From Acanthopleura granulata (Eukaryota; Mollusca; Polyplacophora; Chitonida; Chitonidae): a stretch of DNA of 64,000 nt. Of the stretch, positions 17,815-47,934 are shown in pieces. The notes beneath the pieces are model-generated. The model ran no database searches. It worked only from the letters and a program-made list of their open reading frames with translations, and was not told where the DNA came from. The position numbers and the translations under genes were made by a program. Where the stretch lies: assembly GCA_016165875.1 (NCBI GenBank), contig JABBOT010000002.1:29890040-29954039 (forward strand). Reading direction: 5' to 3'. Each line of letters opens with the position of its first letter. Within the stretch, counting starts at the first letter, position 1.

Positions 17815-18800
17815 TCCTTCTTACAGGACGTACGCCCTAACATCCTGGTCTTCGCAGAGCCCTGAGGAAATGAAGCTTTAGCATCTTGGGCGTCAAAAAG
17901 CGTTACGGGCGGACACTCTACTCAACATTTAATTTTCACAGAGCGTTACGGGCGTACGCTCTACTGAACATTTTAATCATCACAGAGTGTGTCGGGCGAG
18001 TGCTCTACTGAACATCTTGGTCGTCAAAGAGCGTTACGGGCGGACGCTGTCCTGAACATCTTAATCATCACAGAGCGTAACTGGCGGATGCTCTATTGAA
18101 CATCTTGGTAATCACAGAGCGTTACAGGTGGGCGCTTTGCTGAACATCTCGGTATTCACGGAGCGTTAGGAGACAGACTTTCAAACATATTGGTCTTCAA
18201 ACAGCCTTACGGCACACATGCATTATGATCTTGTTCATGACAGATTCTTTCGGAACAGACTTCCTAACATGTTGGTCATCAACAGAGCGCTAAATGACGG
18301 ACGCTCAAACAACTTCGTCGTGACAGATCCTTACAGAACGAAAGCTCTAAATCTGAACATTATAGGAGCATTACGGGAAGGGACATTCTGGCACTTTGGT
18401 CATCATACAGCGTTACGGGATAGATTCTTGAACATCCTGATCATCACAAATCGTTACCTGACTGACTCCTTGGCATATTGTTCTTCGAAAAGCAATGCGG
18501 GGCGTAAGCTCCAACATTTTGGTCATCATAGACCGTTGCGGAACGCACGGTATAACATCTTGATCACAGGAGATGCAACAGAACGAGATCCCTAACATCT
18601 AGGTGATTTCAGGGCGTTACGGGACGGATGCTCTAAAAAGGAGTTCATCGTAGATCATTACGAGACGCACGCTCTATCGTCTTCAATTTTGCAGAGAGTT
18701 ACGGGTTAACATCGTAACACCGTTATGGAACGGACGCCTTAACACCTTGGTCTTCGCAAAATGGTCACGAAACGGACGTCCTAACATCTTGGTCATTATC
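17815..18800 (+). repeat. Degenerate minisatellite, unit about 44 bp
   Basis: About 20 head-to-tail units follow a pattern of GAGCGTTACGGGCGGACGCT, then CTACTGAACATCTTGGTC, then ATCACA. Units are clearest at 17890-18170 (about 44 bp each) and increasingly diverged towards 18800, with insertions and deletions. Open frames across it are a by-product. It lies about 2.3 kb upstream of the first recognised iGluR-A exon. Confidence 0.85.
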
Positions 18801-27100: not shown

Positions 27101-30100
27101 GTAGTCCATGTGGCGTTCGTGTCGTTTAACGTAAAGGTTGTTCCATGTGGCCAAGGGGTGTATAATATTTATTTTTTTTATTTATTTGATTGGGATTTGA
27201 TTGTATGATAGGGATAAACAAACCGGTCCACTCTACATTACAAAATAAAGAAAGACCTGTACTATTTATGATCCCCAGAGTCCTGAGGAACGAAGGGAAG
27301 CTACACACTAAGGACGGAAACTCCGGGGTACATAATCAGAAAGGAAACTCCTACGGCTTCGTGCTACATAATCACAAAGGAAACTCCCATGGAAACGGAT
27401 TATATAATCACAGAGGAAACTCTCCCGGCAGCTCACTAGGTCTGCTGCCTCTACAGTTTGTAACTTGAGAGTCATCCTTGTTCTAAAAACCTTACTGCGT
27501 GCAAAGAAGCCTGACTGTCATGAATTGAACCAGTCTCTGACGCGTTTCCTTTATTATGAAGTCCTTAAAAGTCCTGGGCCGTGGAAGTTTCCTTCCTTGT
27601 GATGTACTTCGGAGGTTCCCTTAACTACTCACACGACCGGGCTTGACACTGCCGTTCGTATTCCTCTTATTAGTAACATGGGGGAGAGGGGGTGGTACGT
27701 GGTTCGTAGTTTTGAGTCGTTCACAGAGTACGCATTCGCGTTTGGTATAATAGGCTGTTGACATGGGACGTTTTATCCGCGCGATTTATGGGTTGGAAAT
27801 GCGTTTCTCACAATGCAATCTAACTACAACCTCTTGTACAAGCTGTCGATGGCAAACACATGCATTTACAGTGCCACACCACAGATCACCTATCCGTGGC
27901 CAATGAAGTCTTGTGGCTGAATAAAGCTTCTGGTAAATAGCCTGCGGCTTTTTCGGAAGAGAAGTAATCTGCACATAGACATATGCCAGGCTTGCTCGGC
28001 TGAAGTCTGACTACTACAAGTTGTTAAAAAAGCAGTAGAAGTAAAATATGATAAAAAAAAATTAAAAATATATGATATCAAGCTAAATATGGAGTCCTTA
28101 CATCCATATCCATACGTCTAAAATACTGATCTTCCTGAACACATGGGAAAACATATAAATAAACGTAAAATAACTATAACATGTATTTTGTTTTCAAGGA
28201 TACTCCCCCCCATGTGAGTCGAAAGTCATCCAGTAACTCATCACTCCACGGCATAGTAATTGATATGTTGGATGACTTGGCCGAAGTCCTTAATTTCAAG
28301 TAAGTAATTGAATATTTCATCTCTTATATAGTGCGCCCTATAGACTCCCTCGGTTTTGACAAATGCTGCGTTTCAGCCCTGCCCTTGGTGGTTTGGCTAT
28401 AGCCTTATGTCACTAATCTGCCAGTAAATGAGTTTCCTTAACCACTGTCGATAAGGCCGTGTATTTGTTTGCAGATACACACTAGTGGAGCCGGAAGATG
28501 GTTGGTTTGGTACAAAACTGTCGAACGACTCGTGGTCTGGGATTGTCGGCATGGTCGTAAGAGGAGTAAGTTGCAATTGCTGTGATAAAACGAAATAAAA
28601 AAACAGTAACTTAATGTGTGCTTTTGTCTTAAACGATACCTTGTTGGTTGTCTTCCTTTACACAAACCCTCTATTTGCTTTGTTTCTTTGGGGTTCGACG
28701 TATCTTTCAGCATCATTAAAAGTATATGACAACCGTTTTTGTATGTACTAGGCAGGTTTCTCTCGTAAAGAAGCACTGTAAATTTCAAAGTTCATGTCGA
28801 CTAACGAGATGTCACAGAAAAATGTTGATGGGAGCATTAAACCCGCGAAGGAGAAAACCGATTGAACCACGGACGCTCTCAGTGAACTGGCCCTCTGTTT
28901 TTGTCGCATAATTTTGTGTATTGAAGCAAGCTGGTGAATATTAAAGCTTCTGTCTGAGTACGTCTAGAGAGTAACACATTCTTTCTCCTCTTGGACAATT
29001 ATTCTAATTCTATAGTCACAGTTGGCGTTGTTGTATACATATCAAGTAATGTTTAGCGTCAAAAAAGTGGCCATTGCATATCATTAAATGCCAGTGCCAA
29101 AGTATCATACTTGTTTTATCCCACGTGCAGGAGGTAGATTTCGCTGCGGGTCCATTCTCCATAACTAAAGAGAGGTCAGAAGTAGTAGATTTCATAACGC
29201 CCTTTATGCACGACAGCTTTGGGATTTTGACCCCAAGACCTAAGGAAGCAACAAAGTTGTTCCAAGTGTTCCAATCATTTGACAAGTTCATCTGGATTGC
29301 ACTTCTTCTCTGCGTTTTGCTGGCCTGTGTCATGTTTGTCACCATCGCGTTGGTAACGACTGCTCACCTAAATGGCGGAAAAAACAAACATGAATTGCTA
29401 GAGATGAGTGTCCAGGAGAACGTCTTACTGATAATAAGTTCCTACTTTGAACAAGGTTTGTATATGTACTTGCTGATATATCATTGTCAGTTGTTATAAT
29501 CCAATATTCATTTTCCAACACCTTTTCACGTAGTACTAAATACTTCTTCTGTTGATGGAATTCAAAATTGTTCGTCTTGTTAATATAAATCAAGTGTTTT
29601 ACGCCATTTTGCTCTGCAAACGTCTAAAACAGTGACGATTTTACATCGTACTTTATTAAACCTGGCGATATTTCTCGAGAACTAAGCCTACATACTGAAG
29701 GGCAGCATGAACTGGATGGTACCGCGATGGTGTGAGTCACCTGCATTACTGAGTTGCGCAAGAGCGCTAACCACTTGGTGGTAAAGTATTTATTTGATTG
29801 GTGTTTTACGCCGTACTCAAGAATATTTCACTTATACGACGGCGACCAGCATTATGGTGGGAGGAAACCGGGCAGAGCCCGGAGGAAACCCACGACCATC
29901 CGCAGGTTGCTGGCAGACCTACCCACGTTCGGCCGGAGAGGAAGCTAGCATGAGCTGGTCTTGAACTCACTGCGACCGCATTGGTGGGAAGCTTCGGCTC
30001 ATTGTGGTGCGATAGCGCGCTAACCGACTGAGCCACGGCTGCCCCTGATGGTAAAGTAAGCAGTTAATCTAATGTAAAACTTATTTTTTGTGTTGTCTTT

Positions 30101-32968
30101 TTCGATATAGCATAAATTAATCATTTTCGTGATTTTTCCACTGGTTTGAAATCCGCCCTTTCACTTACCGTACTGCTATTGTCGTGATAATCTGGCAAAA
30201 TAACCGTAGATAAATAACTTGCTTGAGTTACTATGCATGAGTTACTATTCTATACGTTAGGCCCCACATTTCACCCGAGTTCGGTGTCCGCCCGGTGTTT
30301 CCTGAGCTTCTGGTTTATCTTCACGATCCTCACGATGACGATGTACACGGCTCACCTAGCGGCCGTGTTAACTGTGTCCACACCCCTCCGGCCCATCAAC
30401 TCTCTACGGGATCTTGTGGATCAGAGGGACATGAGAATAGTTATCCGGGAGGGTGGAAGTACCTATAGCTTATTCACGGTAGGTAACTTGCATGTATGAT
30501 TATATGAGTAGCAAACGCCAATAGAAAGCACTCCGGTAAAATCCGTCCCAGCGATTCAAAGTGTATGATGGAAGCCGCTCTGGAAAGCCACTGAGGACAA
30601 ATGACCAAATGAACAAATGTCTGAGAAACATTGTTTTATAATCCCGATAATATTCTGAATGGAATGTAAGCATCCAAAATGTGAATTAATATTTCAAATG
30701 TTCCTTTAACCGGGATTGGTAGGGGCCAGTTCATTAAACTATGTATGTGTTCTGCATGATTAATGGACGAAGTTGTGCCATGCCGGTAAGGCTCGAATCA
30801 GATTCTGAAGCCACTCTCCTAAATTGAATTTGTACCCCAAGTACACAGAATGTAATAAAATTGAACATCTACACTGTTTTATACTACTGGTACACAACCG
30901 TGTGTACCACCGATACACATGTTTTGTTTGCGGGATTTTTTTTCACGCGCAACATTTGCAAATCTCTAGACTAGTAGGCCTACACAAAAAATCAAGATTA
31001 TCAATTTTGTTACAGTTTATATATCTGTGCCACGCGGTCATTTCCAGAGAAAAGGTTAGGTTATTCTGTAGCCCCTGCAGACCCCATAACAATGTGAGCC
31101 CATTTTCACGAAACCCTCTTAACATTACGAGCACGTAACCATGGCAACCATCACTATGGGCATTACTTAGCCAGGGTAGTTAAGTGTTCGTAACGTAAAG
31201 TGGGCTTCGTGCGAGTGGGGCCTGATCTAATCTCGATGGAAACAAACTCTACATATAGGGTCAAATGTTAAGTCTTTGGGAAGATGCCGAAAAAGATCAA
31301 AATTAACAGATGGTATGTACAACATGTCTCTCTCAGAAAAAAATATATTGACAGTTTCCTTCGGAAAATACTGGGATGTGTGCGGAAGATTGAATAATGC
31401 ACATTTCACTTGCCCTTAATACAGAACAATACTTACGCTTCGTGAACTCAAAGCCTCTGGTTTTCGTTTATTGTTCAGATCTATTTATTCTGTTTATTTT
31501 CCTTTCAGCAATCAGAGAAACCTCTACACAAGGCAGTCGCATCACGATTCAAAGCAGTGACAGATTTCACTGATGCCATTAGGGATGTTCGAGATGGGAA
31601 AACGTCTATACTGGCCGACAGAAGTATCCTGGAGTACATGGCTTCCCACAGTTGTGGAGAAGCAAGGGTTGCCAACGAACAAATCCTTGAATATTCTTCG
31701 GGATTTATTGTTCCTCGACATTCTGCATATAAGGAAGCCATAGATTTAAAGTACGTTACTAAGTACAAGTACGGTTTAATTATTTAACTATGTAATTTTG
31801 TGCAATTGCATGGTCTTAGTTTGATACTTTCAATTTTCACTGAATTATCTTTAATTGGATAGCAATATTCCAAAAGACCCAGCATATAGCGTGTACAGAT
31901 CTCGCTCTATAGCATTCGTTAGATACTGCGATTTCCATTAATGTCACAAGTTTATTATGAGTGTCGTTGACATTACTGCAAACGCCTTCTGTTGAATTTT
32001 AGTAATGTTACAAAGAGTGCATTTTTCTGGCAAGTTTAAATATGGATGGAGTTTCCAGAATCTCTCGTGCCCTGCTCGTAATTCCGTATATCTAGGGATC
32101 TAAGCCCTACATTCATACAAAATTTAAACTTTTTCATATATACATAGTATATTGCTTTAGGTTGCAACAAAGAAAGGTTTTATAAATCCTTTACAGAGAC
32201 AAATGTACAAAAGATACTGTACAAATACAATTACTTGGTGTAGATTTTCAATATTGACACACCATCAAATCACACACACTCACTTTAGCTGTAACTTTAC
32301 ATAATTCCGATGTGTATTTGTTAGATGTTTATACCTTAACATCACATTAACTAAAGAAAACATGAGACGATGTTGCAGTTTCACAGCACCTTACTTACGT
32401 AACTCCGCAATTGGCTATATATTCTATACATTCTGTCAAATGAGATTTGTTCGTCTGCATGAAATGCTTTGTAGGTCAAATTAACATCAACTTTATTGTT
32501 AAAATTCACAATTTGTTATTACACTGTAAAGTTGAAGGTGATCGCTAAATAAGATATATAACAACTGTTATCAAATCGCAATTATGATCCATGTTTTGAT
32601 CAACGGCAGCTTAACAACTATCATATACAGTACACGGTTTAGATAAAGATTTAATCCACTTACCTAGAAGAAAATACTTCTCCTTTTAGAATTTGCCTTT
32701 GGTGAATTGTTATTAAAAATTTGATCTATATGTATGTTTAAGGATACAGAAAATGGTGGAGTCAGGTTTGATTCAGAGACTAGAGCGGAAGTGGCAGAGA
32801 CCTTCATTGAACTGTACAACTACTGATTCGTCTGGCAAAGTCCGTCCACTAACACTGGAGTCCCTTGGCGGTGTATTTATTGTCTTAGGCGTTGTTACAC
32901 TCGTGGCGCTGTGTAGTTTACTATTGGAGCAGACCATGCACCGGTGTCGACCTTGTTATACTCGATAA
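21145..32968 (+). CDS. Ionotropic glutamate receptor A (iGluR-A)
   Basis: A spliced gene for a ligand-gated cation channel subunit of the plasma membrane. Exons by eye: 21145-21276, 24302-24559, 24954-25105, 25490-25633, 26424-26585 (amino-terminal domain); 26809-27033, 28199-28299, 28475-28565 (S1 ligand half); 29131-29455 (end of S1, M1, pore loop); 30261-30478 (M3); 31509-31750 (S2); 32743-32968 (M4, stop TAA). Phases join throughout, giving about 758 codons; the first exon(s) with signal peptide are not found. Hallmarks: PFSITKERSEVVDF with the carboxylate-binding Arg, M1 KFIWIALLLCVLLACVMF, pore loop ending YFEQG, M3 MYTAHLAAVLT (for the usual SYTANLAAFLT), S2 ILADRSILEY with Asp at the ligand-amine position, and M4 VFIVLGVVTLVALCSLLLE. 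The Asp resembles GluN and GluD rather than AMPA/kainate types. It is the paralogue of the gene at 36.1-47.9 kb; subfamily not resolved. Confidence 0.9.
26187..26399. mobile_element. Fold-back element in an iGluR-A intron
   Basis: Two arms of about 100 bp (26187-26290 and about 26295-26399) are imperfect reverse complements. The outer ends read ATTACTTTTCTAC and GTAGAAAAGTAAT, and inner parts read CCCAAGGCGATACATGATTC against its counterpart. There is almost no spacer and no coding capacity. The right end stops only 24 bp before the exon at 26424. Confidence 0.75.
27303..27437 (+). repeat. Short tandem repeat, 36-bp unit
   Basis: Three full units and one shortened unit share ATAATCA, then AAAGGAAACTC, then a variable end. 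They lie in an iGluR-A intron. The unit is a multiple of three, so an open frame runs through it, but no splice signals link it to the gene. Confidence 0.6.
29789..30048 (-). mobile_element. Full-length SINE in an iGluR-A intron
   Basis: Complete element on -: tRNA-like head (GTGGCTCAGTCGGTTAGCGC at the right end), body and tail module TTACGCCGTACTCAAGAATA at the left. It has a perfect 10-bp duplication, TGGTAAAGTA, at 29779-29788 and 30049-30058. It lies in the intron before the M3 exon. Confidence 0.92.
30261..30478 (+). other. iGluR-A M3/pore exon (conversion tract)
   Basis: This 218-bp exon encodes the loop after the pore, M3 and the start of S2 (PINSLRDLVDQRDMRIVIRE). Against the exon at 46434-46651 I count 13 mismatches by eye, with 124 consecutive identical bases (30335-30458). 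Adjacent exons differ at roughly half their residues, and flanking intron sequence is unrelated. Confidence 0.85.
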
Positions 32969-33300
32969 TGGAGAATTCAAAATTGGTATTATATGGAAAC
33001 TCACCATATCTGATACCTCAGAATTAGTTGTGACCGTCAAAAACTTACCCAAAATAATTCGTTAACATGATAATTATTGTGATTTTTTCGGGCATGATAT
33101 GAGATGAAAGGACAAGTATAGATTTTGTCGAACGTATTAATTTTAATTACATTAATGAAAATGAGAAGAGGTAGTTGTAACGTGTGTTTAATAGTTGTGC
33201 TCTACTTTACCCATAGATATTTGCAGCGATGCTTAGCAACCCCAAAGGTGCTACATGCTCACAACAAGAAGAGCAGAGGAAGTGTTCCCTTTCACTTGAT

Positions 33301-33463
33301 TTATTTATTTATTTATTGATGTTTCACGCCTCCCACAAGAAGTTTTCACTTATACGACGGTGGCCAGCAGGAAGCCAACAAGAGCTGAACTTGAACTCAC
33401 AGCGACCGCATTGGTGGGAGGTTCTCGGGTTATTGTGCTGCGATAGCGCGCTAACCGACTGAG
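33301..33463 (-). mobile_element. SINE with internal deletion
   Basis: Head and tail modules of the SINE family are present but most of the middle is missing. It is flanked by a perfect 13-bp duplication, CCTTTCACTTGAT (33288-33300 and 33464-33476). It lies just downstream of iGluR-A. Confidence 0.88.
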
Positions 33464-33476
33464 CCTTTCACTTGAT

Positions 33477-35583
33477 ATTAACTTCAAACCTTGCAGATTA
33501 AAAAAAGTACTTTTTCAGGTTCGGTGACCTTACTGTGCTCAAAAATTTAATTTTACTAGCCATTGTCCATTGATTTATATTCAGTTATTGATAGCATGAA
33601 ATATTTGATACAAACAATGTTATATAATATCTTTACGTTATGTACATTACTTCCATATATGTGAGTATTTATCTCTTAAGCATCATGCACTGTGTGTATT
33701 TTCTTTTCACAGAGTGTATATGACAGTTTGTGATACTTTTTATGTGTGGAAAAGGTTGCTAGTTTCGGAAGAGTGTAAGGCAGTTATCGCGCAGTACTTC
33801 CAGGGTCCAGTCTTTAATACATTTTATCTTTTCATTATCCTAACCGGCTCAACTTTATTCCCTCTGTCTTAAGCAGTGTATACGTCATGACCTGCACTGA
33901 AAGCCAGAAGTCTTTCCTCAAGCATCTATATGTATGTATGGAATTGTGAACAGGTTGTCTCTGTTGGAAAGAAATATAAGTGTTGTGAGCATGTTTACAT
34001 AAGGCCAGAAAGTTCAATACACTAGATTATGACAGAGTGGTGAGTTTACAGCAGTACAGTCTTTATCTCGACGGACCACAGTGAAAATATATTTGTTGAG
34101 ATTTTCGTAACGAGAGTTATTAGACCTGGGTACCGTTTAACGTTGTCAATTTGAACTTCGGTTTTGCTGTTTTACCGTCACATTTTTCAAGAGTGTGTTT
34201 CGCCACACACTATTTTGTGCTGGAGACTTGTTTCTGATCTTGCATTCCTCATCGTCTCTTTCTGTTGTGAAGTACTTACATCCCAGTTTCCACTAGGAGG
34301 GGCGTTGCCCTGGAGATCACTCTATGTCCAGCCTGAAGACTGGATTTTCTAACGCCCGGTGGGAAATCACCGCTAACCAGTTGCCCTGAGAAGTATGTCT
34401 CTCGCAGGGAAATCTGATACAAACCGTTGTTGGTTTATTGTGTGAACGATTAACACTTGGATACCAGTGATACTTTCATGTGAAGAATTCACAAAAACTG
34501 TGGATTTAATTGTCTGTGTGAACTGAGACTTGCCTTCTGGACACCTAGTGTCTCGACCGTGTCATTATTTGTGACCTACTTTAATCTCCGTCAGAAACTT
34601 TATTTTGTTATTGTCTGTATTGTTATTTGTATATAAACTGTAGTATTTAGACCGGTTTGTTCAATTGTATGTATTGAATCTATCTAAGTGTCTTCACTTT
34701 TCTTTCTTTGATCTTGTGTAAAGCTCTTCGCTGTCCGGGATCTGAGTAAACCGTTTGTTTCCTGTTTTTCCTGTCAGAATATAGATTCCCTTACACTAAC
34801 AATTTGACAAACTATATGTACTTTCACAAAACTCTTCGCCTTTGCATGTCTTTCATCTCCAGGATCCACTTACGCTATAAGCAAAAACACACATGCGTAC
34901 AAGACAATAATAGCTTCAAACTTACAGAAGCGATGATGACAGTGCTCTGGAGATATCCTGTCAGCGGCTTTCATTATTCACAACATCCCCACCTCACCCT
35001 AAAAAAAGAGCTCAGCCTCACGTAATCCATATGTACCTTGCACTCGTGAAACGTGATAGGCGCATTCTTGAAACCAAGGATCATAATGGTTAGTTACGAC
35101 TGACACACACAACCATTAAGAAATAAACACCATCAAACCGAGCTTTTTATCCAGTCTTACAGTGAACTTTAAACGTGTTCAATAGCTATTTGTTTATCCA
35201 AGAAATCAACCCTTTCAAATAATTTTGTTCAACAGCGTGGTAGATTACACGAAAATACATTTGAAACCAAATAGTGCTGACATGGCGTATTGGTATGAAA
35301 AGGCTTAAAAATATCATGATCACGCAGGCAACGATTGCTTTATCTACCTGAAGGTGTCAGCGAAGTCCTTTTAAATTCGACAATGGGGAATTTCGAAATT
35401 TTAGGAATCCGGACTGTGACTAAAAATCGCATGGGCAACAAACATGCAGAAAGTATTAGGTTGTTGACAAAGTTACAACATCAGGTGGAAAGTTGACTGT
35501 GACGAACTCTACAATAGGTAACTGTATCCTGCGCAGGTTTTCACACCTTGCTATGCGTTATTCATTTGTACGAGGTATTTCAT
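33477..35583. other. Gene-free stretch between the receptors
   Basis: No exon of either receptor is visible. The part from about 33700 to 34800 has a composition like the untranslated end of a retroelement, with a TATA-like TGTATATAAACT at about 34628, but I find no paired terminal repeats or reading frames, so it stays unassigned. Confidence 0.35.
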
Positions 35584-35587
35584 TTAA

Positions 35588-36070
35588 AGGGAAAAACCAC
35601 ACAAAATGACGTTATGGTGAATGAATAGGGCATTAAAAACTGTGCATGAAAATACCTTCATTGAATTTGTTAGATTTAGATCACTAAATTAAATGTAGTC
35701 AAATGTTTTGATTGTATGATGGGTTTTATAAACCACATTCATAATGTGGTTCATCAGTGACGTCACAAAACTTTCCCTGACCCTCTCTGAATGAAGTTCT
35801 TGTGAAGTGTGCTCCTGTACTGTTTGCATGTGTATGAAAAAGTGAACATAGCACTAAATTTCTGCTCTAGGGTCAGAGAAAAGTCGATGTGATGTCACTG
35901 GTGAACCACGTCATCAATATGGTCCAAAAAAACCCACCATACAATTAAAACATTTGACTGCACTTAATCTGGCGAAGAAAAATCTTTAAAATTCAGCGAA
36001 GTTACTGTTAGGTACAGCTTTTAATGATCTTATCATTCATCATATCTTCATTATTGTGTGGTCTTTCCCT
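35588..36070. mobile_element. TTAA-flanked MITE with long inverted repeats
   Basis: A 483-bp non-coding element starts AGGGAAAAACCACAC and ends GTGTGGTCTTTCCCT. The inverted repeats extend about 190 bp with scattered mismatches (for example AGTCAAATGTTTTGATTGTA against its counterpart). It is flanked by TTAA on both sides (35584-35587, 36071-36074). The TTAA target suggests mobilisation by a piggyBac-like transposase; TA-targeting families cannot be excluded. Confidence 0.85.
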
Positions 36071-36077
36071 TTAATAG

Positions 36078-39000
36078 TGGTTTCCACTACATTGTTTCAA
36101 AGTAGTTTCTCCACTTCAGAAAAGAGATTAGACCTACCCGTCCATACATGTCCAGATGACAAAATGGATGTCAAACAAAGCTGCTCTTCTATTCTGGGGA
36201 GTAAGTATTTACTTAGAATCTGGCGTCAGCCTCTTCTGGGCTTTGTCCACAGGTCAGCGGTCAGCTTACCACCCGCAAATGGAAACTGTTCTGTGCTTGA
36301 AGTGGAAGTCAAACTAAGCGAATTTGTAGAAACCAAACTAGACTTTATATATCGTATTCGTGATCCCTAGAGACCACTTATATATGGCCGACAAAGCACA
36401 TCTCACTCATAAACAGTTTTAAGGCGGTAGGTGAAGTCTTTTGTGGGGCAATCGGTAGGTTAAGTTTGTTTTTGTCCAAGGGGGCGTTGCACTGAAATAT
36501 TTAATATTTGACTTTTCGTGACATAAGCTATAAAATCTATTAAGTGAGTAATATATGACGAAACCAGTATAAATGAAACAGTATTAAAATGGCAAACGAA
36601 TATCTTAGTGAGCTAGCTGTCTATTTTCCCACACAAACACTTGGATAACTTAGTAAACCTGTTAAATTCTACAGCTGAGCGAGGTTTCCGTACGTTTCGT
36701 TCATGTGGCCAATGTTTAACTTTCTTGAAAGGTTGTGCTGAAAATAAGGAAGCCTCTTCAGCAAGCTCTGCATTTATTAGCACGTTTAATAACGAGGTAG
36801 AAAACAATAAACGAAAAACATTAATAACGAAAAAAGTGCTAGCGCGTTAATCGACTTTTGAATATCGTATACAACGTGCTAACAGGATAGTCGATATTCC
36901 GATAACAAAAATAAAAAAAGTTTAGGTCCTAATAAGGAAATACGTACCAGCTCCATTGTAACTGTCAATCAATCAATCAATCAATCAATGCATCAATTAT
37001 TCGAGACCTGAATAAGGAGGAAATGCTAGCACGTTATTCGACATTCCAATAACGAATTCACGGAAAACGAAAGTGGTGCTAACTTCAACCTCTCGCACTG
37101 ATCATGTTATGATGGCTTCATGTGCAGATGCTCTGCTGTTCTTATATGTACAACTTATATCGATACGACTCATATCGATCAGGTATGTTTGATTTTGCTA
37201 ATCCTTTGTAACAGTTGCTTTCAACATTTTGTTTGGTCATACCGCAACGGTGCTTCTTTGTAGCAGGATGGACACATGCGCAGTGACGACATTTGTATAC
37301 TGCCAACACCATGTCAACCACACCACATATAACGCCCCAACGAATCACATTATACAGTAAGTAGGCCGACCAGTACATGACCTGTTCCTCTTGTGCTGAG
37401 TAGTTAACGAGATAGTGAGAAGATTACCGATGTTAAAGTGTCAGGTACGACTCGAGTTGGTAATCTCATCAATCTCATCAACCTGCATCATTTTGGATTC
37501 AATATGTTTATAGTGAGAACTGTTGGTTGTTGGGACCACACTATATTGCATTTGTGGAATACGAATTGCCCATTTTTGTTTCATGGGGAAAACTTAGACT
37601 GTTCCCTTATACACCTAGGCCTTGTTTAATTCATTTCGGCTGCTTCTTTAAGTCAGGAGGTTTGTTAGGTATCTATTGAAGGTCGGTGGTTTCCTCAGTT
37701 AACGTATCTGACTGCCATCAAGTGAAAACTTCATGATCTCGGCGTTAAACACCAATCAATCAATCGATCAATCAGTCAATCAATGAATTCATATGTGTTT
37801 TTGAATATTTGATCATTTTTGATGTGACTTTGCGACAACTTGTACATATTACAGGGTCTTTTAGGATTTTTGACTGGATACGCTCGCTTTTAGACTGTTG
37901 TGAAGAGCTCATCGAGTCCAGTACTGGCTGTATGATGTCGTATCCAAAAGTCCTGTTATTGCTTACATCTTTACTGAAGAGCATGACTGTCACACCACAC
38001 CAGAACGTTAATACAATTGGTGAGTTTCAAGTATTACCTAATTTACTTACTGAAATCAGTATCTAGAGCAGGACTTACACTTTTAATTGAGATATACTTG
38101 CTTAAAGTTTCTCCTTTGATCCAAAGTGGTACTATGGAACGGGCCTTGTTTCCTTGTTCGCGTGAAGAGTGGGTGTCTGTCGATCTCTTTATCCTCTGAT
38201 ATTCATTTGTCTTCATGTAATGTGTGAGTTTCTCAACGAATATGTATGAATCTCCAAAAACCGTATTTTTGTTTGAATGCCATCAAGGTCAAAGTTGACA
38301 GATATCCTTGTACATGGTATAAATTCTTGTGGGCCCTCTCGGTTCAACCCGGATATTGATTATTTTGCCGTGTGAGTATAAGACATTGGGCTAAGAGCTT
38401 GTTATAAAACTCTGACGTGCAGGAATTGAGACAATGTTTCCATTTTTTTCATCTTATCGTGGCTGTTTAAAGACAACGTAATTTCCATATTCTCTCTGGC
38501 AATGAGAAATAGACGATGAGAAAGACTTTGCATTTTCTTCATATGTACAAACAGATGATATGCTAAACAAAGGGGTAGGAGTTGTACCAATTACCGCTGG
38601 TTTGCACAATGCAGTTTTAAAACTGCACGACTATCAAAGAATTTCGTGAACTTCCACGAACAAATATTAACATGAGACAAATTTTGAACTGTAGGTCCCA
38701 TGTTCGCCTTATCAAGAATTGACGAAGATGACAATTTTGCTCATGCAATCACACGAAAGGTTTTTCTTTTTCTTGATCACCTTACCAAGTACGCTTCTTG
38801 GTTTTAGGCCCTATATTTGGGATTGTTAATAAGTGTAGTAATCGAGCGTTAATAATCTTAGTATGCGCTCAAATTCATTAAAGATATGCTGATTAAGCTC
38901 GCTCCCAGTTCATCTTTGAGCTAACAAGGAAGTCATCACTAGTGTTTCATCACTGTCCGTGAGATTTATGTAATACGATTAGTTCTGAAATTCGTCCATG

Positions 39001-42000
39001 AAAATGCAAAGTGGGGCCCCGCCAAAGGAACAGTCGTGGACAGTAACAGTTTGTTTAGCAGAGTTTATTTATCCCCTCTAAGGATAATACACTCTAACTG
39101 CGGATAATGTGTGTATACAGGCCAGGAGTACATTCGAAGCTAATGACTAAATCCGGAGAAGCTAATGAGTGGTGTGATATTTAAGAGAGACTACAAATTG
39201 ACTACCCCTAAAACAAACGTGCTTTATAGTCTTAACACAGAGGGATTTCAGATAACTGTTGACCTTGACCTTCAAATCTCCTGCACATGGGTTTTTCTGA
39301 AATTCGAAAATTCTCGTCTAGGAATAACTCATTCTCCACAAATAAATCCAAATAGCGAGTACACTATCTGTCTATCTTACAAAAAAAATCAAAGCAACGA
39401 TGATATATTAACTCTAGAAACTCAGTACCGGTATATAATGCACACAGAGTAAGATTTCGCTGCGCAAATAACATTCTCGTCAGGTACAGTGAAGAAGAGT
39501 GTTAAGTCCATCAGCATGGGAACAGGACAGGGTAGTGTGATAGCTTGATCGGGGCTACTAGCAGTTCACAGCTCATGTGTGTTAAAAAAAAGGAAAAACA
39601 GGCTTTCAAAATGGAAAGATAAAAACCCACAGGGAAAGAAAAGCTTTCTAGAGTTGCGGAACATCTTTATTTTGTGCAATTAAACCACTATAATTCAAAC
39701 TGAGCACATTTTCTCATGAACAGTCCAATTGATTAAAATGCGACGACTTATATAATACTACACACAGATGAATGTTTAGGCGTGCAATATCATGATTTGT
39801 TAGTATGAGATAGGTGATATTCAACTCGTCCTACGACCTCGCTGAATATCACCTATCTCGAGCTAACAAATCGTGATACTGCACGCCTTAACATGCCTTA
39901 TCTGTTTTATTATACCGAAAAAGTTCAACACAGTTTTTTCTTAATGTTGAGTAGTTCATTTAACGTAACGAGAAGATTGCAGTATTGCATCTTCCGTGAT
40001 ACATTAAATTCACTGTTGGCCAGGAAATGGTTACAATCAAAATATTTACTTTGCAAGCAACAAGAGACAACAGCTTACTTTTTAGCACGTGTGTATGTTT
40101 ACGGGAGGCGAATTGTGTCTAAATCTTCCTCGGTTGGCACTTTAAATCGTTTCGGACCAGCTGCGTGACACTCAGCCGAGGCTGCCATCAAGGAGACGAC
40201 TGGAGCAGAGGACACTGTTCCGAAGAAGGCACGTGCAGGTGCAACGTCACTACGCAAACGTGCAATATTAGCCCGAGATCGTTCACTATCATAAAAGAGC
40301 AAACATCACATGATAGAGTTTATACCAATCAAATCAGACAATCTATAGGTGAGGTCTAATAATGTTATTTCTTGCTTTTGTTAAAACTTGTTATTTGAAT
40401 TCCCTTAATCGTTATTATTTCATATGTAATTAAGCATTATTCGCTGTTTGGACCATTGTGCAGCATTGTGTCTGTTCCTAATTACCTCACAATTATGCTA
40501 TTCGAATGGCTATATTGCAACTGTTAAGATATGTAGCCTATTGGTTTTCATCAATGAATTGTAATTCATCTAAATATAGGCTTCCGGTTTTTAAAATGAC
40601 ATGTACTGTAAACCTACTGATCTTTATTCAGTTCTAACGACCTGTTCTCAGGTGTAATACTGGACGTTAATCTAGACCAGAAGTCTCTGTCACGAGCCGT
40701 GGACAAAGTTATCTGCACATGTTATCCCTTGGTCTCGTGTGACTCTCACAGAGGAATCACGTGGATAACACTAAACTCCAGAAGTCCGCGCCATGCAGCC
40801 AATACAGGTTAGTTCAGTAACCGACACAGTGACATACTATAAAGACATGGATTACACCCTTAGACAATGACTGGCCACACCCTCATCATGATTTTCCTGA
40901 AATATCGTTGGTGTGACGTAACGCAATCATTATCTATTTCAGCATATTGAAAGAACCTCAAAGATATCTAACTATAGGAAGGGGAGCTAATACCGAGGTA
41001 TATTTTTGAGCCAAGCGAAATTTATATCTGTTCACATTTATCATTCCATGTCTTTTCCAGTATATGGAATGATAAATGACGGCATCGAAGTTTTTATCAC
41101 CATACTAAGGTGCCCACAGAAGAGAACCGTGTCCGCCATGACAGAGAGCTTTCAATTACCTCATCTCTCTTTCAACCTTGACCTTTGTCCATCTAACGGT
41201 CCTGAGGAGTTCACGCTTCATCTGACCCAGATGTATAACAACATGGCGGCCGTTCTGGTTGACATCGTCTTGGCAGTAGATCTAACACAGATAACACTGG
41301 ACTTCCAAACTGTATTCCGTAATGTATTAATTTACTGCTTTATTTACGACCACGTAACAAATCACATATGAAAAAAAGAGTCTGAAAAAATGACAACTGC
41401 CGTAATTTCTTAATTGGAGGTTTTGCATTTTGCGTTTCCGTTATATACACAAATGACATTTTCAATATGATGGGCAATTTAAACATTGATATATCCCACC
41501 AATGGCTTCTCAGAATTTCAGCGAATTAGTGCCAATAGAACCAAAACATTCAAACAATACAAATTCATCGACCATTCTCTCGTTTTAACAAACATAGTAT
41601 CTTAGGAAAGCGTATCATGCATCTTAATATGGCTTTCATTGTAGCAAGAACGCTTTCGCCATCTGACATTCATGTTTATGCTTTCAAGACCCGAAGAATA
41701 TATGTACATTCCCTGAACAGATCCTGTTCTCAATCAATATGTCCTGGTGCATCTTGGCTCGGCTGGAATTCGAGCTGTTTTGTCGAAACCTGTGGAGCAT
41801 CCTGAAGAGCCGTTATCAAGAAATGAAGGAATGTATATCATCATGGCATACAGTTATGATACTAAAACGGTGAGTTCATGAAACGAATATTATTTATGGC
41901 TTTTTTCGCTATGGCGAATACATGGTTAAGGTGGCATACAAATGTGTGCGATGTGTCGTTTCCACTGTTCAGATCTGACAGCATGGAATTAGGACAGACA

Positions 42001-45000
42001 GTCTTTTATTTAAGTCGTAGTCACATGAAAAGGTTTGTGGATTTTTGTAAGACATATAAAATAGCGTTTGTCACATTGATATTCGATCAGTTCGACGGGT
42101 CCATTCGAGGAATCACATCTACGTGAATGGGGCCATATACACCGATTCTCGCTTGAATCTACAGACGTCACTTGTAAAGGCGTTCTTCCGTTTCACTGGT
42201 GTGTTTATGTAAACATTATTCCGCCTATTTCGTCAGGCAGGCGATAGTAGTTTCAATCCCAAACAGAGAACACTTGTGATTACGGACCGTCTGTCCAGAG
42301 ACCAGCCCAAGCAACCTCAACACCACAATAACGTTGTGCATCTAGAGATCCGGTCCAAACGGACGCCATCTGGGTCTTGTCAAAACGAAACTAACACAGA
42401 CTTACATCTTACGGTAAGACTTGGCTGGTAATATTTTACATTATATTATTCATATTATATATATATATACATAACGTAAGCTATGCCGTCTTATACCTAT
42501 ACATTTTAATCACACTTACTTTGGCATAACATGCACTTTATGTTCTACCTGAAAGAAGTGCCATCTTGGAACTTAGAGAATGCTTACTTCTAAATACAAG
42601 GTATTAAGATTCACACAGTTGTCTTTTAGTCCTGAATCCTGTGCCTTTCAGCTTTTACAGAAGATAATAACAGAAACTTTGGGGATGCTGTTTGAAACAT
42701 TTGTCAGAATGAACGACAGGACAGATGGTAGCTTTTGTGTGTATCACACCCAACGGCATTCTCTAACGAAGAATGATCTGGTTAAGCAGTACAAAATGGT
42801 AAGGTTAGAATCAAGCACATACACATATAGCTTTCATGAAACGTCTGATGAACTTAGGAATACCCTTTTTTCCAGATCGGATGGGAAATAACCAATTTTC
42901 TTTTTTCTAACCAATATCCCAGTTTGCCGTCGAGTTGCAATTTTAGTCACACCCTTGCCTTGCGAAATCATTTAAAGGTATACCTAGTATCAGCTGGCAA
43001 ACATATTTCATTCTGTCTGTACATTGGTAAGAATTAATCAATACTGATTGGAATATATATATAGGACGAATACATTCATTCGCTATGTTATAATGATTAA
43101 CATGCATTCTCTCGTTATGTTGCACTCAGTAGATCTGTGGAGATGGAACACTGTGGTAGCTATTCCAATCATTAATTTTTACTTATAATAATAATTAGAA
43201 TGCATTATCTCGCTACGTTACACTCACCAGATCTGCGGTGCTGGAGATGCTAACATTTGCGGTTACTTGTCTGAGCGGACTGAATATGAAATATTTGACA
43301 TCACTGGAGACCCTGACCGAACCAGTTCTGTGGGAGAGTGGACAGGAGAGAAAAGATTAATTGTCCATTCTACACCACAAAGTCTCGCGAAGAAATTTCT
43401 GTGGAACAAAATGTCTGATTTTGGAGGGATCACGTTAAAGGTTGCCGTAGATAAGGTATATGCTTTGGTTTATTTTCCACTGAACACATCTCCCTTGTTG
43501 CTCCATGAGTAAGCAAACATCCAAATTTCCATAAACAACGTTCAGACATGCAACATAAGCTGAAATTATAAAGATTCCACTTCGATTCCCTGCAAAATAA
43601 ATTTAAGCTGTACAACATTTAAGAAATCATTTTCCTCAGGTATAACGTGAACTCTGTTTAATATGTTGCTGTTTTCTATACTCTCGGTGATTGTGCTCGT
43701 AATTATTCATTATTCATATTATTATTTGGTTACAAATTAATAATTCACTGGATCAAATGCGATTAATCCTTCTCTTGTGATTTAATTTGATTTCCTCCAT
43801 CCTCGATGTGTGTTTTCAGGACAGCCCACCTTTCGTCAGCAGAGACCAGACTGGTAACAAATCCCATCATGGCAGTGCGATCGACATTCTGGACGAGTTG
43901 GCGTCTATTCACAATTTCACGTGCGTCATACTTGTATCATTCAAACCGGTAAACTCAGGCATTTGCTGATTTACCGATGTTAACGCTTGTTTGATCATTG
44001 TAAGTAGACTCTGACGGGCGAAGTATAGCTGAAGCGTGTAGATATAGGCTTGATTTCGTTGGAATCAAACAGGATCATGTTCTAAACGAGGAAGCAATTT
44101 GACTCAACAAGTGTAAAAGCGATCCTCAGTATTTTTCAGGCTCTGATATCGCATAATGATTAACCCCCGTGCAAAATTACCATGTCTCCTTCTGATTGTA
44201 CTCTCAAAATGAAAGCAGCGAGGCAACTATATACAAATCTCTAATGTGTTACTTGAAAACCACTCAATTGTTCAGTGCATGCCTAAGTGTTGCATTCCAC
44301 CTCCCCCTAGGCCTCATAGGATGTACTTAAAGCCTTTCAGTGTCCTGTGATCAAAAGTGATATTATGTCACAGGCACAGAAAACGGTGGTCTGTAAAGGA
44401 ACTCTTGCTTCATTCTATAAAATTTAAGGGTAAAGTTCACTGGTGTTATCAACAAGCTTAAGTGAAAAAAGACAGTGAGTCAACTCTGTAATACGAAATA
44501 AGACCCTAATGATGAAAAATCAACATTCTGTGCTTAGCTACATATATATTTTGATGACTGTAAAGTCCCCGATGCTTGCCGTTCAGGAATTCCGAAGTGC
44601 AATAATTGTTTTCGAGTATTAATATTACCGACTAACAGGAAACTGAATTGGAGAACGATGGCCAGAAGAACACAGAATCATGAACTAAACGCAAGTCAGT
44701 TCATAGTGCATGTGATGCACAGTTACAGTGGAAAACCCTATTAACAATGATAATTGGTGTTAAAATAACAGAATAAAGTATGAGGTGTTATGATTTTCAG
44801 CCCCATATCTGTTTGTTTTTAGATCCCTTTCATAGTGACTGATCATTGTCCCACAGAAGAAACAACATTGGTTAAAACGTGTTAAGTGTTTTACTGTAAT
44901 ACAACGATTATGCTTATCATCATTTATAGTTTATCACGGAATGTAAACACATACATGGTCTAACATCATCTATTACACTCCACACATGATGGATGCTGTT

Positions 45001-47934
45001 GGTTTACAGGTATGAACTGCTTGAATCCCCAGATGGGAAATACCGCGTGAAAATGCCTAATGGCTCGTGGTGTGGGATGGTTGGCATGGTTTCCAGGAGG
45101 GTAAGAAACTGCTTAGTATATAGAAGGAACAGCTTTTTTGACATAGTTTGGAAAGATCAGTTGACGCTTTCTTGTAACGGAAACATGCACATCTTCGCAA
45201 ACCCATTTCACTCTGGGTTATTGTTGAGAGCAACGTTTTAGTTTGCACTTCACTGACTTGCCCATAATAATGTCGATACACCACGCTTTTCAGACTTGCA
45301 CCCACCTTTCTTTCATTCCGTTCCATTCACTTCTCCTATAGTTCTTATGGACTTGACATGAATTTGAACAGTGCTGGATATTGCTGTAATGGTGTAGACT
45401 GTTAGGCGAAAACAAGTAAATTATTCATCTAATGATGTCTATAAGCCGTTTCTCAAAAAGTAGTGGAAAGAATGTAGTAGTTTCAGAGAACTTCTTGATT
45501 TGCAATTCCTGCTACATTCCGTCAGTTGTGGTGGGCTTGAATTCCATTCCGATGTGGATCTTGAATGAGACTTAAATTTGACATTAACATACTTCTATAC
45601 TTCTTTGTCTGATGCTCAGCATGTGAAAATGAGACAGAACTTGGTCCGTGATAACTAGCTGGGTCGAGTGTCATGTCTGTATGTTGTCCTGGGCGTGTAG
45701 ATGATGCAGTTCTGGTCGGATTTCACATTTCTGTTGGTGATCAGAATCCTTTACAAGGGGATTATCTGTAGAGAGTTTTGTTCTTCCACGTAGGAAGCAG
45801 ACCTGGGTGTGAGTTCATTCACCTTGGATCCAGAGAGGATGGAAGCCGTGGAGTTCACGACCCCCTTCAGGCAGGACTCCCATGGAATTCTGACTCCAAA
45901 ACCGAAAGGAACATATAAAATGTTCCAAGTGTTCGAATCATTTAACGGGTTCATCTGGCTCGCCCTGTTGTTCCATGTTCTGCTAGCCTGCTTTGTTTTG
46001 GCCTTCATAGGATCGAGAACTGATTTCGTCACGACAAGCACTGGCGAAAGGAAACATCTATTGCACAAAAGCATCGTCGATAATGTCACTTTGATCTTAA
46101 GCTCATTTACTGAACAAGGTTAGTATATTTCTATCTATGTATTTTAATTTATTCATGACTGGTAGTTGACGCCGTGAGCAGGAGATTTTCTCCTTGTTTG
46201 CAATTGCTAAACGTTTGTTGGAGAACAGTCATTGTGAGCTCAGTAGTAAATAAGTCATAGTATACGCTCGACACCTCATATCCGGCCATGCCTGCCGTTT
46301 TCCCTTTCCTAAAGACTTTACTCCTCAGCCTAAACACCAGATTCTAAAAGAAAACTTGTTCAGTGTGGCGTGAAACGCCAAATAAATACATATATTTATA
46401 GTTTTTTGTCATATTCTTATTTTCTTTTCCCAGGCCCCACATTTCACCCGAGGTCGGTGTCCTCTAGATGTTTCCTGAGCTTCTGGTTTGTTTTCACGAT
46501 CCTCACCATGACGATGTACACGGCTCACCTAGCGGCCGTGTTAACTGTGTCCACACCCCTCCGGCCCATCAACTCTCTACGGGATCTTGTGGATCAGAGG
46601 GACATGAGAATAGTTATCCGGGAGGGTGGAACTACCTGGAACTTATTCGCGGTTAGTAAGTTACACGGGAGCTTTTGTCTGCGGAATACGCCAACTTTTA
46701 ATCATGTCATATCCACATTTCCACCAGCTTGTACAGTCTACCTTTTATTGTCTTCCTATAAGACAAGATCGATTACTGCTATGCTCTAGAGGTCCTGAGG
46801 GGACTTTGTTAAGGCTACGACCTCATGCTTATGGGTGCACCCCCCCCCCTTAAAACTTTCTCTCCTCACCAAGTAGCTTCAGTACTCCACCGCAAGTCAA
46901 CAAACCATTCCTCGCACCTTCACAATATGGACGGTTCTCTGTCGCTGCTACAGAAGGGCCCTCCAATAAAATGGTCACTGCAGGTAGTGTTACCCACATA
47001 TAGATAAACCCTAACTAGATCGTTCAATCTGGAAACAAGAAAACAGTCATTTGAACATCTTGTTCATGTCATTGGTGCACATTTAAAAGGTATATTCTAA
47101 CTGGTCAAAACATCTCTTTAGTTCTGGTGCTTCATTGGTGGAATGTACTTGAACTGAAGTCCAACTACCTACCAAAGATGCCAGAGTTAGTCCTGACGGC
47201 ATGAAAGGATGACTTTTGATACAGAAAGAATGTATACTTCGTCGCCAAGTGTTGCCGTGGCTTCTCGCTGAGAAAGGGCCTCATACGAGATAAAGGTGTG
47301 GTAACAGCGTGGTGTTTCATACTTTAGTCGGTAAATCATTTAGATTTTCAGATTTCCTTGCTTTTCTTGCAGCAATCACAGGCAGCTCCATATAAGGTTG
47401 TAGCTTCACGGATGGAGGCAAAAATGAGTTCATTGGCAGATATTATTCGAGAAGCCAAAGGAGGGAACCTCTGCTTCCTGGCTGACAGAACACTACTAGA
47501 GTACCTAGCCTCTCAGAGTTGTGGAAACGTGAGGGTTGCCGAAGAAAGCATTCTTGGATTTTCGGCCGGATTTATTGTTCCCCACCAGTCTACGTACAAA
47601 GAAGCGATAGACACCAGGTGTGTAGGCATTTGAATTTCGGACAAAAGTTACTTTTAATGATCTTACCAGCAGGTTAATTGTGACTAAAGTGTAATATTCT
47701 TTGGTTTTGCGTTACAGCATTCAGAAAATGGTGGAGTCCGGTTTGATAGAGAAACTAGAGAGGAAATGGGCAAGTCCTCCAGCGGTCTGTGCAGGTAAAC
47801 ATTCAAAGGGCTCTGTTCGTCCGCTGACACTAGTCTCAGTTGAAGGTATATTTGTCATCTACGAGGTTATTTCTTTTGGGGCAATGTGTGTCCTCTTCGT
47901 GGAACTTGCTGTACTTCAAAGCTGCACTCGATGA
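36078..47934 (+). CDS. Ionotropic glutamate receptor B (iGluR-B)
   Basis: Tandem paralogue of iGluR-A. Exons by eye: 36078-36200 (likely N-terminal, less certain), 37855-38019 (candidate, phase-compatible), 40652-40807, 41061-41318, 41721-41869, 42267-42413, 42652-42798 (amino-terminal domain); 43231-43455, 43820-43920, 45010-45100 (S1); 45794-46118 (S1 end, M1, pore loop); 46434-46651 (M3); 47373-47617 (S2); 47718-47934 (M4, stop TGA). About 855 codons. Exon lengths equal those of A for 258, 225, 101, 91, 325 and 218 bp. Motifs: LESPDGKYRVKMPNGSWCGM, SSFTLDPERMEAVEF with the ligand Arg, FIWLALLFHVLLACFVL (M1), TEQG at the pore, MYTAHLAAVLT (M3), FLADRTLLEY with Asp. No in-frame ATG is seen upstream of a hydrophobic, signal-like start, so another 5' exon may exist. 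AATAAA at 48210-48215 is a plausible poly(A) signal. Confidence 0.88.
36785..37085 (+). repeat. Irregular short repeats in an iGluR-B intron
   Basis: Variants of GTGCTAGCACGTTAATCGA followed by ATTCC and ATAACGAA recur three to four times at uneven spacing. They are interrupted by a TCAA tetranucleotide run (36966-36990). Confidence 0.45.
37640..37788 (+). mobile_element. Second SINE type, 3' part with ATCA tail
   Basis: The segment ends GGCGTTAAACACCAATCAAT followed by an ATCA-type run. The body differs from the GAGTACGGCGTAAAACACC family but shares the C-rich AAACACCAAT end, which suggests a shared LINE partner. The head is not recognisable. Confidence 0.55.
37855..38019 (+). other. Candidate second exon of iGluR-B
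   Basis: A 165-bp open segment has a TATTACAG acceptor and GTGAGT donor. It enters and leaves after the first codon base, exactly the phase of the exons on either side, and encodes a helical sequence (DWIRSLLDCCEELIESS). No counterpart was found in iGluR-A, so it may be skipped or spurious. Confidence 0.45.
39778..39888. repeat. Perfectly centred hairpin repeat
   Basis: Two 46-bp arms (39778-39823 and 39843-39888) pair with about five mismatches around a 19-bp loop. The inner arm contains GAGATAGGTGATATTCA and its complement. It lies in an iGluR-B intron. I have the impression of similar hairpins in mollusc genomes but cannot name a family. Confidence 0.85.
46352..46402 (+). mobile_element. 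SINE tail remnant before the iGluR-B M3 exon
   Basis: GTGGCGTGAAACGCCAAATAAATA resembles the SINE tail module; the rest of the element is lost or too diverged. Confidence 0.4.
46434..46651 (+). other. iGluR-B M3/pore exon (conversion tract)
   Basis: Near-identical partner of 30261-30478. The identical block is 46508-46631. The acceptor is TTTTCCCAG and the donor GTTAGT, both with unrelated intron flanks. Confidence 0.85.

Follow-up and report, generated by a model that had tools for sequence, protein, structure and literature searches.

The iGluR gene cluster of Acanthopleura granulata

The DNA studied here is a stretch of 64,000 nucleotides (hereafter, the window) of contig JABBOT010000002.1 (C2) from the chiton Acanthopleura granulata, and it carries two tandem genes, gA and gB, for predicted ionotropic glutamate receptors (iGluRs). 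For a survey of the gene cluster to which they belong, the region C2:29680001-29890000 was joined to the window (C2:29890040-29954039). The cluster comprises 10 M3-bearing iGluR genes within ~230 kb, on both strands, which were named by position: g710, g750, g789, g811, g820, g838, g850, g874, gA, and gB. In this work, we report that the first part of their M3 exon is homogenised at silent sites across most of the cluster, and we weigh gene conversion against the other possible causes of this pattern.

By domain and S1/S2 architecture, the cluster genes are, as judged from sequence, ionotropic glutamate receptors: gA has a PF00060 (Lig_chan) domain (Pfam, 2.3e-13), and an iGluR profile matches GluD1 at 6.7e-68 over S1-M1-M3-S2-M4; the same profile also matches AMPA and kainate receptors. 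Both gA and gB are free of stop codons in all seven stretches analysed. At the DNA level, a genome-wide search gave at least nine matches to the gA M3 exon, gA itself included, all of them at C2:29.71-29.94 Mb and on both strands; it found no further copy of the exon to the right of the window. The gating motif MYTAHLAAVL is encoded at 30341-30370 of the window and in the paralogues, with N in g750 and R in g710 replacing H. The canonical motif SYTANLAAF is thus not matched by the cluster genes, and both related proteins of the chiton Liolophura sinensis likewise carry H. PMC6307864, on metazoan iGluRs, describes SYTANLAAF as well conserved in most sequences and lists exceptions, so the canonical form need not be strictly required.

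Homogenisation of the gA and gB M3 exons

An earlier note on this DNA, made from its letters alone, had placed the M3 exons of gA and gB at the positions given in Table 1, with a length of 218 bp each; these are exact, and both exons are preceded by AG and followed by GT. Its estimate of about 13 differences and an identical run of 124 bases agrees with our count (13 differences, 205/218 bases identical, run of 124). The adjoining exons, as it also held, are only about half identical in protein (ATD, the amino-terminal domain, 54%; M1 48%; S2 52%; M4 48%), and in the two S1 pieces 34/65 residues are identical. The introns abutting M3 are indeed unrelated: when the cluster was compared with itself (blastn, E<=1e-8), gA and gB matched at exons only, the M3 match (30259-30492) extending 14 bp beyond the donor site.

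Divergence at silent sites separates the M3 exon from its neighbours. Synonymous divergence (dS, NG86) between gA and gB is 0.13 in M3 codons 1-52 (hereafter, the core) and 0.00 in codons 53-72, against 1.72 in the ATD, 1.33 in M1, 1.12 in S2, and 1.01 in M4. Differences at fourfold-degenerate sites number 1/30 in the core and 48/92 in the other exons (p=3e-7), and among degenerate codons for identical amino acids the silent mismatch is 2/46 in the core and 80/157 in S1, M1, S2, and M4 taken together (p=7e-10). The longest run of silent identity between the two genes, which ends in S2 codon 7, has a permutation p of 5e-5, the lowest value reachable with 20,000 shuffles of codon order. A recent duplication of the whole gene is ruled out by the diverged flanking exons, and the proposal that gene conversion is the simplest reading of this pair is supported by an M3 silent divergence far below that of the neighbouring exons. 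The description of the exon as the "M3/pore exon" calls for one change: it encodes M3, the M3-S2 linker, and the start of S2, and the re-entrant M2 pore loop ends the preceding exon in the alignment with GluD1. Since that exon is not homogenised, "gate exon" is the better name.

Extent and borders of the homogenised core

The earlier note had proposed conversion between two receptors. The gA/gB tract is real, but the homogenised block is common to nine M3 exons rather than two and covers their first ~160 bp (the M3 gate helix and the linker); its presence in other genes rules out a single event between gA and gB as the entire account. In the blastn comparison, matches around M3 between gA and seven other genes cover only the exon's first 163-174 bp, beginning at the exon start or a few bases before it. 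The whole exon and the 14 bases following it are common to gA and gB only. Interspersed repeats aside, no other match between the introns of cluster genes was found by blastn.

Silent sites were compared in all 21 pairs of seven of the ten M3-bearing genes, g820, g838, g850, and the fragment g728 being excluded from these tables. Among the excluded genes, g838 was used for GC content at third codon positions (GC3), the identity matrix, the trees, and the checks of reading frames and shared variants; g850 for GC3, the ATD matrix, and the same checks; and g820 for GC3 and a silent-site comparison of its own. One profile was made without g789, the first S1 piece of which opened with a stop under a guessed exon border; in the remaining comparisons this gene was kept with that S1 codon masked.

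Between-clade pairs have a silent mismatch of 0.51-0.68 in their other exons; in the core the value stays at 0.04-0.36 for young and old pairs alike. Fourfold sites show fewer differences in the core at p<0.05 in 17/21 pairs, including 15/15 between clades. With all degenerate codons, the core compared with S1, M1, S2, and M4 gave p<=0.018 in 15/15 between-clade pairs and p<0.05 in 1/6 pairs within clades. The longest silent-identity run is significant (p<0.05) in 13/21 pairs, and all 13 such runs lie in M3. Over the 21 pairs, silent mismatch in M3 does not rise with that of the flanks (slope -0.09, Spearman p=0.22), a flat relation that is expected under conversion because conversion keeps resetting M3. 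The homogenisation of the core is therefore independent of duplication age.

The borders of the core are equally plain in a sliding profile over concatenated codons of the ATD, S1 (two pieces), M1/M2, M3, S2, and M4 (seven genes, 15 between-clade pairs). Silent mismatch is 0.12-0.21 in seven windows over M3 codons 3-47 and 0.51 again in codons 53-67; outside the M3 core and the ATD exon, it is mostly 0.5-0.7. In codons 53-72, gA is 91.7% identical in DNA to gB and 46.7-56.7% to the six other copies of the matrix. These codons align with a lower-lobe segment of GluD1, and we take this segment to contact the ligand in iGluRs. Therefore, the rise in mismatch and the alignment place a border between gate and sensor inside one exon.

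Gene trees and mosaic exons

A DNA tree of the flanks (M1 and the M3 tail of eight genes, IQ-TREE), which carried a warning of long branches meeting, gave three groups with starred support: g710/g750/g789/g811, g838/g874, and gA/gB. The flank data reject a grouping of gA with g789 (approximately unbiased (AU) test, p=1.3e-6) and, with p 0.003, the group of five genes seen in the core tree. The core tree itself is star-like, and its shortest end branch is that of gA.

The exon of gB looks like a mosaic from the distribution of its variants. Within its first 74 bases, eight polymorphic sites are unlike gA, and 4/8 of these agree with g838/g850, including two variants (bases 20 and 59) found in no other copy; bases 75-198 are those of gA. 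Genes g838 and g874 are 91.2% identical in M1 and only 86.5% in the core, where g838 is closer to g789 (90.4%), to gA and gB (both 89.1%), and to g750 (88.5%), and is not nearer to g710 (85.3%) than to g874. This suggests that the broken gene g838 took part in conversion, before or after breaking. The M3 exons of g838 (C2:29838126-29838343) and g850 (C2:29850447-29850664), ~12.3 kb apart, are identical, and both genes have the same TAG in the M1 exon; they are likely a recently duplicated pseudogene.

A second island in the ATD exon

The claim that conversion is limited to the M3 exon needs some loosening, since the ATD exon of gA has an apparent further tract, weaker than the first. In ATD codons 16-60, the silent mismatch of gA is 0.21-0.33 to g710, g750, g789, and g811, against 0.64-0.67 in other exons of the same pairs (p from 4e-5 to 1e-3), 0.38 to g874 (p=0.017), and 0.50 to gB. 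The run test alone gives no support for this island (gA-g789 run, p=0.28). It resembles the trace of an older or separate conversion, with gA as recipient or donor.

Comparison with Liolophura and Mytilus

One protein search returned two Liolophura proteins; another, which scored the 7996 candidates with the most words in common, returned these two, four Mytilus proteins, and one from a barnacle. The nearest are those of Liolophura sinensis, which belongs, as does A. granulata, to the subfamily Acanthopleurinae. One of them, P0001, is the counterpart of gA (M1 exon, 72/107) and the other, P0002, that of g874 (84/110); a search centred on M3 returned P0002 only, P0001 being outside its length window.

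Sharing of the block between orthologues by descent was not what this comparison, made with proteins only, revealed. Outside the core, gA differs from P0001 at 64/192 positions and from g789 at 94/192, the orthologue being nearer. In the core, the differences from gA are 8/52 for P0001, and 2/52 for g789, 3/52 for gB, 3/52 for g750, and 4/52 for g710. This reversal between core and flank is significant for g789 (p=0.017), gB (p=0.042), and g750 (p=0.026), so that at the protein level the gA core appears species-specific relative to three of six paralogues. Columns in which five paralogues agree and P0001 differs number 4 in the core and 9 in the flank; those uniting gA and P0001 against four others number 0 and 27, respectively (p=0.008 with the species-type counts). 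When gA, P0001, g874, and P0002 are compared, S1 and M1 contain 38 patterns of the orthology type and 0 of the species type. In the Mytilus control, the chiton pattern is absent: in the core, paralogues differ at 8/52 and 9/52 positions, and orthologues at 1/52 and 1/52.

Alternative explanations

The main alternatives to conversion invoke constraint. If protein-level selection alone were at work, with M3 as the best-conserved portion of the receptor, its high amino acid identity (the highest in the seven-gene profile) would be accounted for, but equally conserved runs elsewhere are silently diverged: within runs of at least 10 identical residues, 58/369 codons are silently mismatched in M3, compared with 43/75 for M4 and 6/10 for M1 (10/40 in the ATD; the remaining exons have no such runs). 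Given also the contrast of the gA-gB pair described above (dS 0.13 against 1.0-1.7), this explanation is practically negligible. Codon bias as a cause is ruled out by the mismatch expected from codon usage for the core residues, 0.69, which is far above that of the core. Purifying selection on the nucleotides themselves (a splicing signal, RNA structure, an editing duplex, or an overlapping frame), acting with no conversion, would likewise yield a low silent divergence independent of age, and the +1 frame is open across most of the gA exon. However, none of the nine M3 copies has an alternative frame open over the whole exon, and in gB the +1 frame meets a stop at codon 11, which rules out an overlapping reading frame; RNA structure is ruled out for the gA exon, which folds no better than its shuffles (z=0.42). 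The identity of gA and gB also enters codons 53-66, which vary freely in other genes, and the gA core is less like that of the Liolophura orthologue than those of three Acanthopleura paralogues. The gene g820 (C2:29820230-29820449), with a frame break in the M3 exon and the middle of the gating motif lost, has escaped homogenisation: its M3 silent mismatch to the seven genes is 0.66-0.74, and it encodes HLAAVLTV with 6/8 codons unlike those of gA. All eight residues are kept; therefore, much of the silent change probably predates the break, when the protein was still held. With these results, nucleotide constraint is very unlikely.

Other alternatives concern how the similarity was produced. 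Similar paralogous exons can be mis-polished, and reads of one M3 exon could have corrected another in the assembly. That the A. granulata assembly is described as a nanopore-Illumina hybrid (PMC7850002) speaks for such an artefact. However, 5-23% of the core bases still differ between the genes of each of the 28 pairs in the eight-gene matrix, which is too much for read swapping; in the independent Liolophura assembly, the two divergent paralogues P0001 and P0002 agree at 45/52 core positions against 84/192 outside. We hold an artefact to be highly improbable. Conversion templated by cDNA (retro-mediated) instead of DNA would explain why the tract begins at the exon border and leaves the introns untouched, yet with a spliced template the adjoining exons would be available for copying too, and these stay unhomogenised; the border is already explained by the absence of intron homology; this route is extremely improbable.

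Several observations weigh against conversion or narrow its reach. Among g710, g750, and g789, which form a young clade, mismatch in the M3 core is not significantly below that of the flank. Only 4/21 silent runs (g710-gA, g750-gA, g750-gB, and gA-gB) survive Bonferroni correction, and, as the pairs share genes and sequences, the tests are not independent. Gene g811 is only partly homogenised, with 17/52 residues differing from gA. GC3 is highest in the core (0.68), yet the unhomogenised S1 pieces L1 (0.64) and L2 (0.60) are near, and biased conversion therefore gains no strong argument from it. The tree of the short core does not reject the flank groupings tested, g838 with g874 included (AU p 0.09-0.49). 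Some silent changes in g820, now a broken gene, may have arisen after the break. The cross-species test consists of two Liolophura proteins and 52 columns at the protein level: with gA as focus, 3/6 paralogue tests reach p<0.05 (g710 being borderline at 0.053), g811 (p=0.78) and g874 (9/52, p=0.31) show no reversal relative to gA-P0001, and with g874/P0002 as focus 2/5 tests reach p<0.05. The four-protein patterns in the core are 1 of the orthology and 1 of the species type, and the comparison of P0001-P0002 with P0001-gA gave p=0.17.

Probable recurrent conversion of the gate exon

All results considered, recurrent ectopic (non-allelic) gene conversion across the tandem iGluR cluster, productive almost only in the M3 exon, is the best explanation, to which we assign a probability of roughly 0.87. 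Beyond the seven genes tested, g838 and g850 carry the same block at the DNA level. The process would involve three steps: repair uses one M3 exon as the template for another; the tract stops where homology stops, at unrelated introns on the 5' side and at the diverged ligand segment on the 3' side; and selection retains conversions of the gate and discards those overwriting ligand-binding sequence. The genes would thus draw on a common gate cassette while their sensors diversify. That the gate is shared in order to keep the subunits of a tetramer compatible is a guess. An extended scenario is doubtful: selection for interchangeable subunits of mixed tetramers would circulate one M3 gate by conversion, with g838/g850 as templates or recipients and conversion at the ligand end purged, and the ~160-bp island between unrelated introns would suffice until neighbouring silent sites are near saturation.

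Regional conversion in tandem receptor genes is of a kind already known from the clustered protocadherins of vertebrates, as described for fugu (PMC1852091) and, for the work of Noonan et al. 2004, in the review PMC3966226. The two systems are alike in that one part of tandem receptor genes is silently homogenised in a lineage-specific manner while the rest is diverse, and in that selection is thought to bar conversion elsewhere; raised GC3 is described for the fugu genes (PMC1852091), and in the chiton GC3 is highest in the core but nearly as high in L1 and L2. They differ in that the protocadherin tract lies within large (~2.4 kb) exons of cell-adhesion genes, whereas in the chiton it spans ~160 bp within a small exon flanked by unrelated introns, encodes an ion-channel gate, and occurs in genes of both orientations. 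RHD/RHCE, as treated in PMC3966226, is similar in having conversion in some exons and fixed differences clustered in an exon selected for new function; however, these are two human genes still similar overall, and the chiton cluster consists of ten old genes that are silently highly diverged elsewhere. Relative to the metazoan iGluRs of PMC6307864, the homogenised block likewise contains the gating motif, but the chiton motif is non-canonical; the term "gene conversion" is absent from the main text of that paper. In titles and abstract openings, with most subscription journals outside this scope, we found no report of conversion for a receptor or ion-channel gate.

In this cluster, one ion-channel exon appears to evolve as a part held in common by a whole gene family. 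The exon is sharply divided into gate and sensor, and within a single protein these two would follow different evolutionary rules. The cluster offers natural tests of the shortest homologous island able to sustain conversion, and of a role of conversion in keeping co-assembling subunits compatible. As a caution, the conserved M3 region can be a misleading basis for trees of tandem iGluRs.

Features and repeats of the locus

The coordinates of the gA and gB features are collected in Table 1. An isolated S2 exon, g728 (C2:29728326-29728442), for which the cluster survey detected no M3 exon, is probably a gene fragment.

Table 1. Features of gA and gB in the window (positions from its first letter)
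Feature	Positions	Strand	Remarks
gA M3 exon, 218 bp (M3 helix, M3-S2 linker, start of S2)	30261..30478	+	AG/GT borders; 205/218 to gB; Pfam Lig_chan
gB M3 exon, 218 bp	46434..46651	+	AG/GT borders; 205/218 to gA
gA codons 1-52, homogenised core	30263..30418	+	Silent mismatch 0.04-0.36 over the 21 pairs of 7 genes
gB codons 1-52, homogenised core	46436..46591	+	Variants of g838/g850 present in its first part
gA codons 53-72, ligand-contact segment (assumed)	30419..30478	+	Common to gB only; gA-gB silent differences 0/15
124-bp run in gA identical to gB (minimal gA-gB conversion tract)	30335..30458	+	Silent-run permutation p=5e-5
124-bp run in gB identical to gA	46508..46631	+	
gA M1 + M2 pore-loop exon (analysed stretch)	29131..29457	+	Not homogenised (48% amino acids, dS 1.33 to gB); Pfam, GluD1 alignment
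gB M1 + M2 pore-loop exon (analysed stretch)	45794..46120	+	
gA S2 exon (analysed stretch)	31512..31751	+	Not homogenised (52%, dS 1.12 to gB)
gB S2 exon (analysed stretch)	47376..47618	+	
gA M4 exon (analysed stretch)	32741..32956	+	Not homogenised (48%, dS 1.01 to gB)
gB M4 exon (analysed stretch)	47716..47931	+	
gA ATD exon codons 16-60, apparent second, weaker conversion island	24340..24474	+	Common to g710/g750/g789/g811, not gB
gB ATD exon (analysed stretch)	41054..41293	+	Not homogenised
gA S1 exon piece (L1)	28196..28300	+	
gA S1 exon piece (L2)	28473..28565	+	
gB S1 exon piece (L1)	43817..43927	+	
gB S1 exon piece (L2)	45008..45097	+	

An interspersed repeat of ~250 bp lies just upstream of the gA M3 exon (29787-30048), and many partial or full copies, up to ~93% alike, are found across the cluster in both orientations. 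Transport of the exon by a transposon was considered and rejected, as the repeat stands at no constant position relative to M3; no copy adjoining the gB M3 exon was detected at E<=1e-8. Further upstream of gA, positions 17882-18168 are occupied by a tandem repeat with 5.7 copies of a 44-bp unit.

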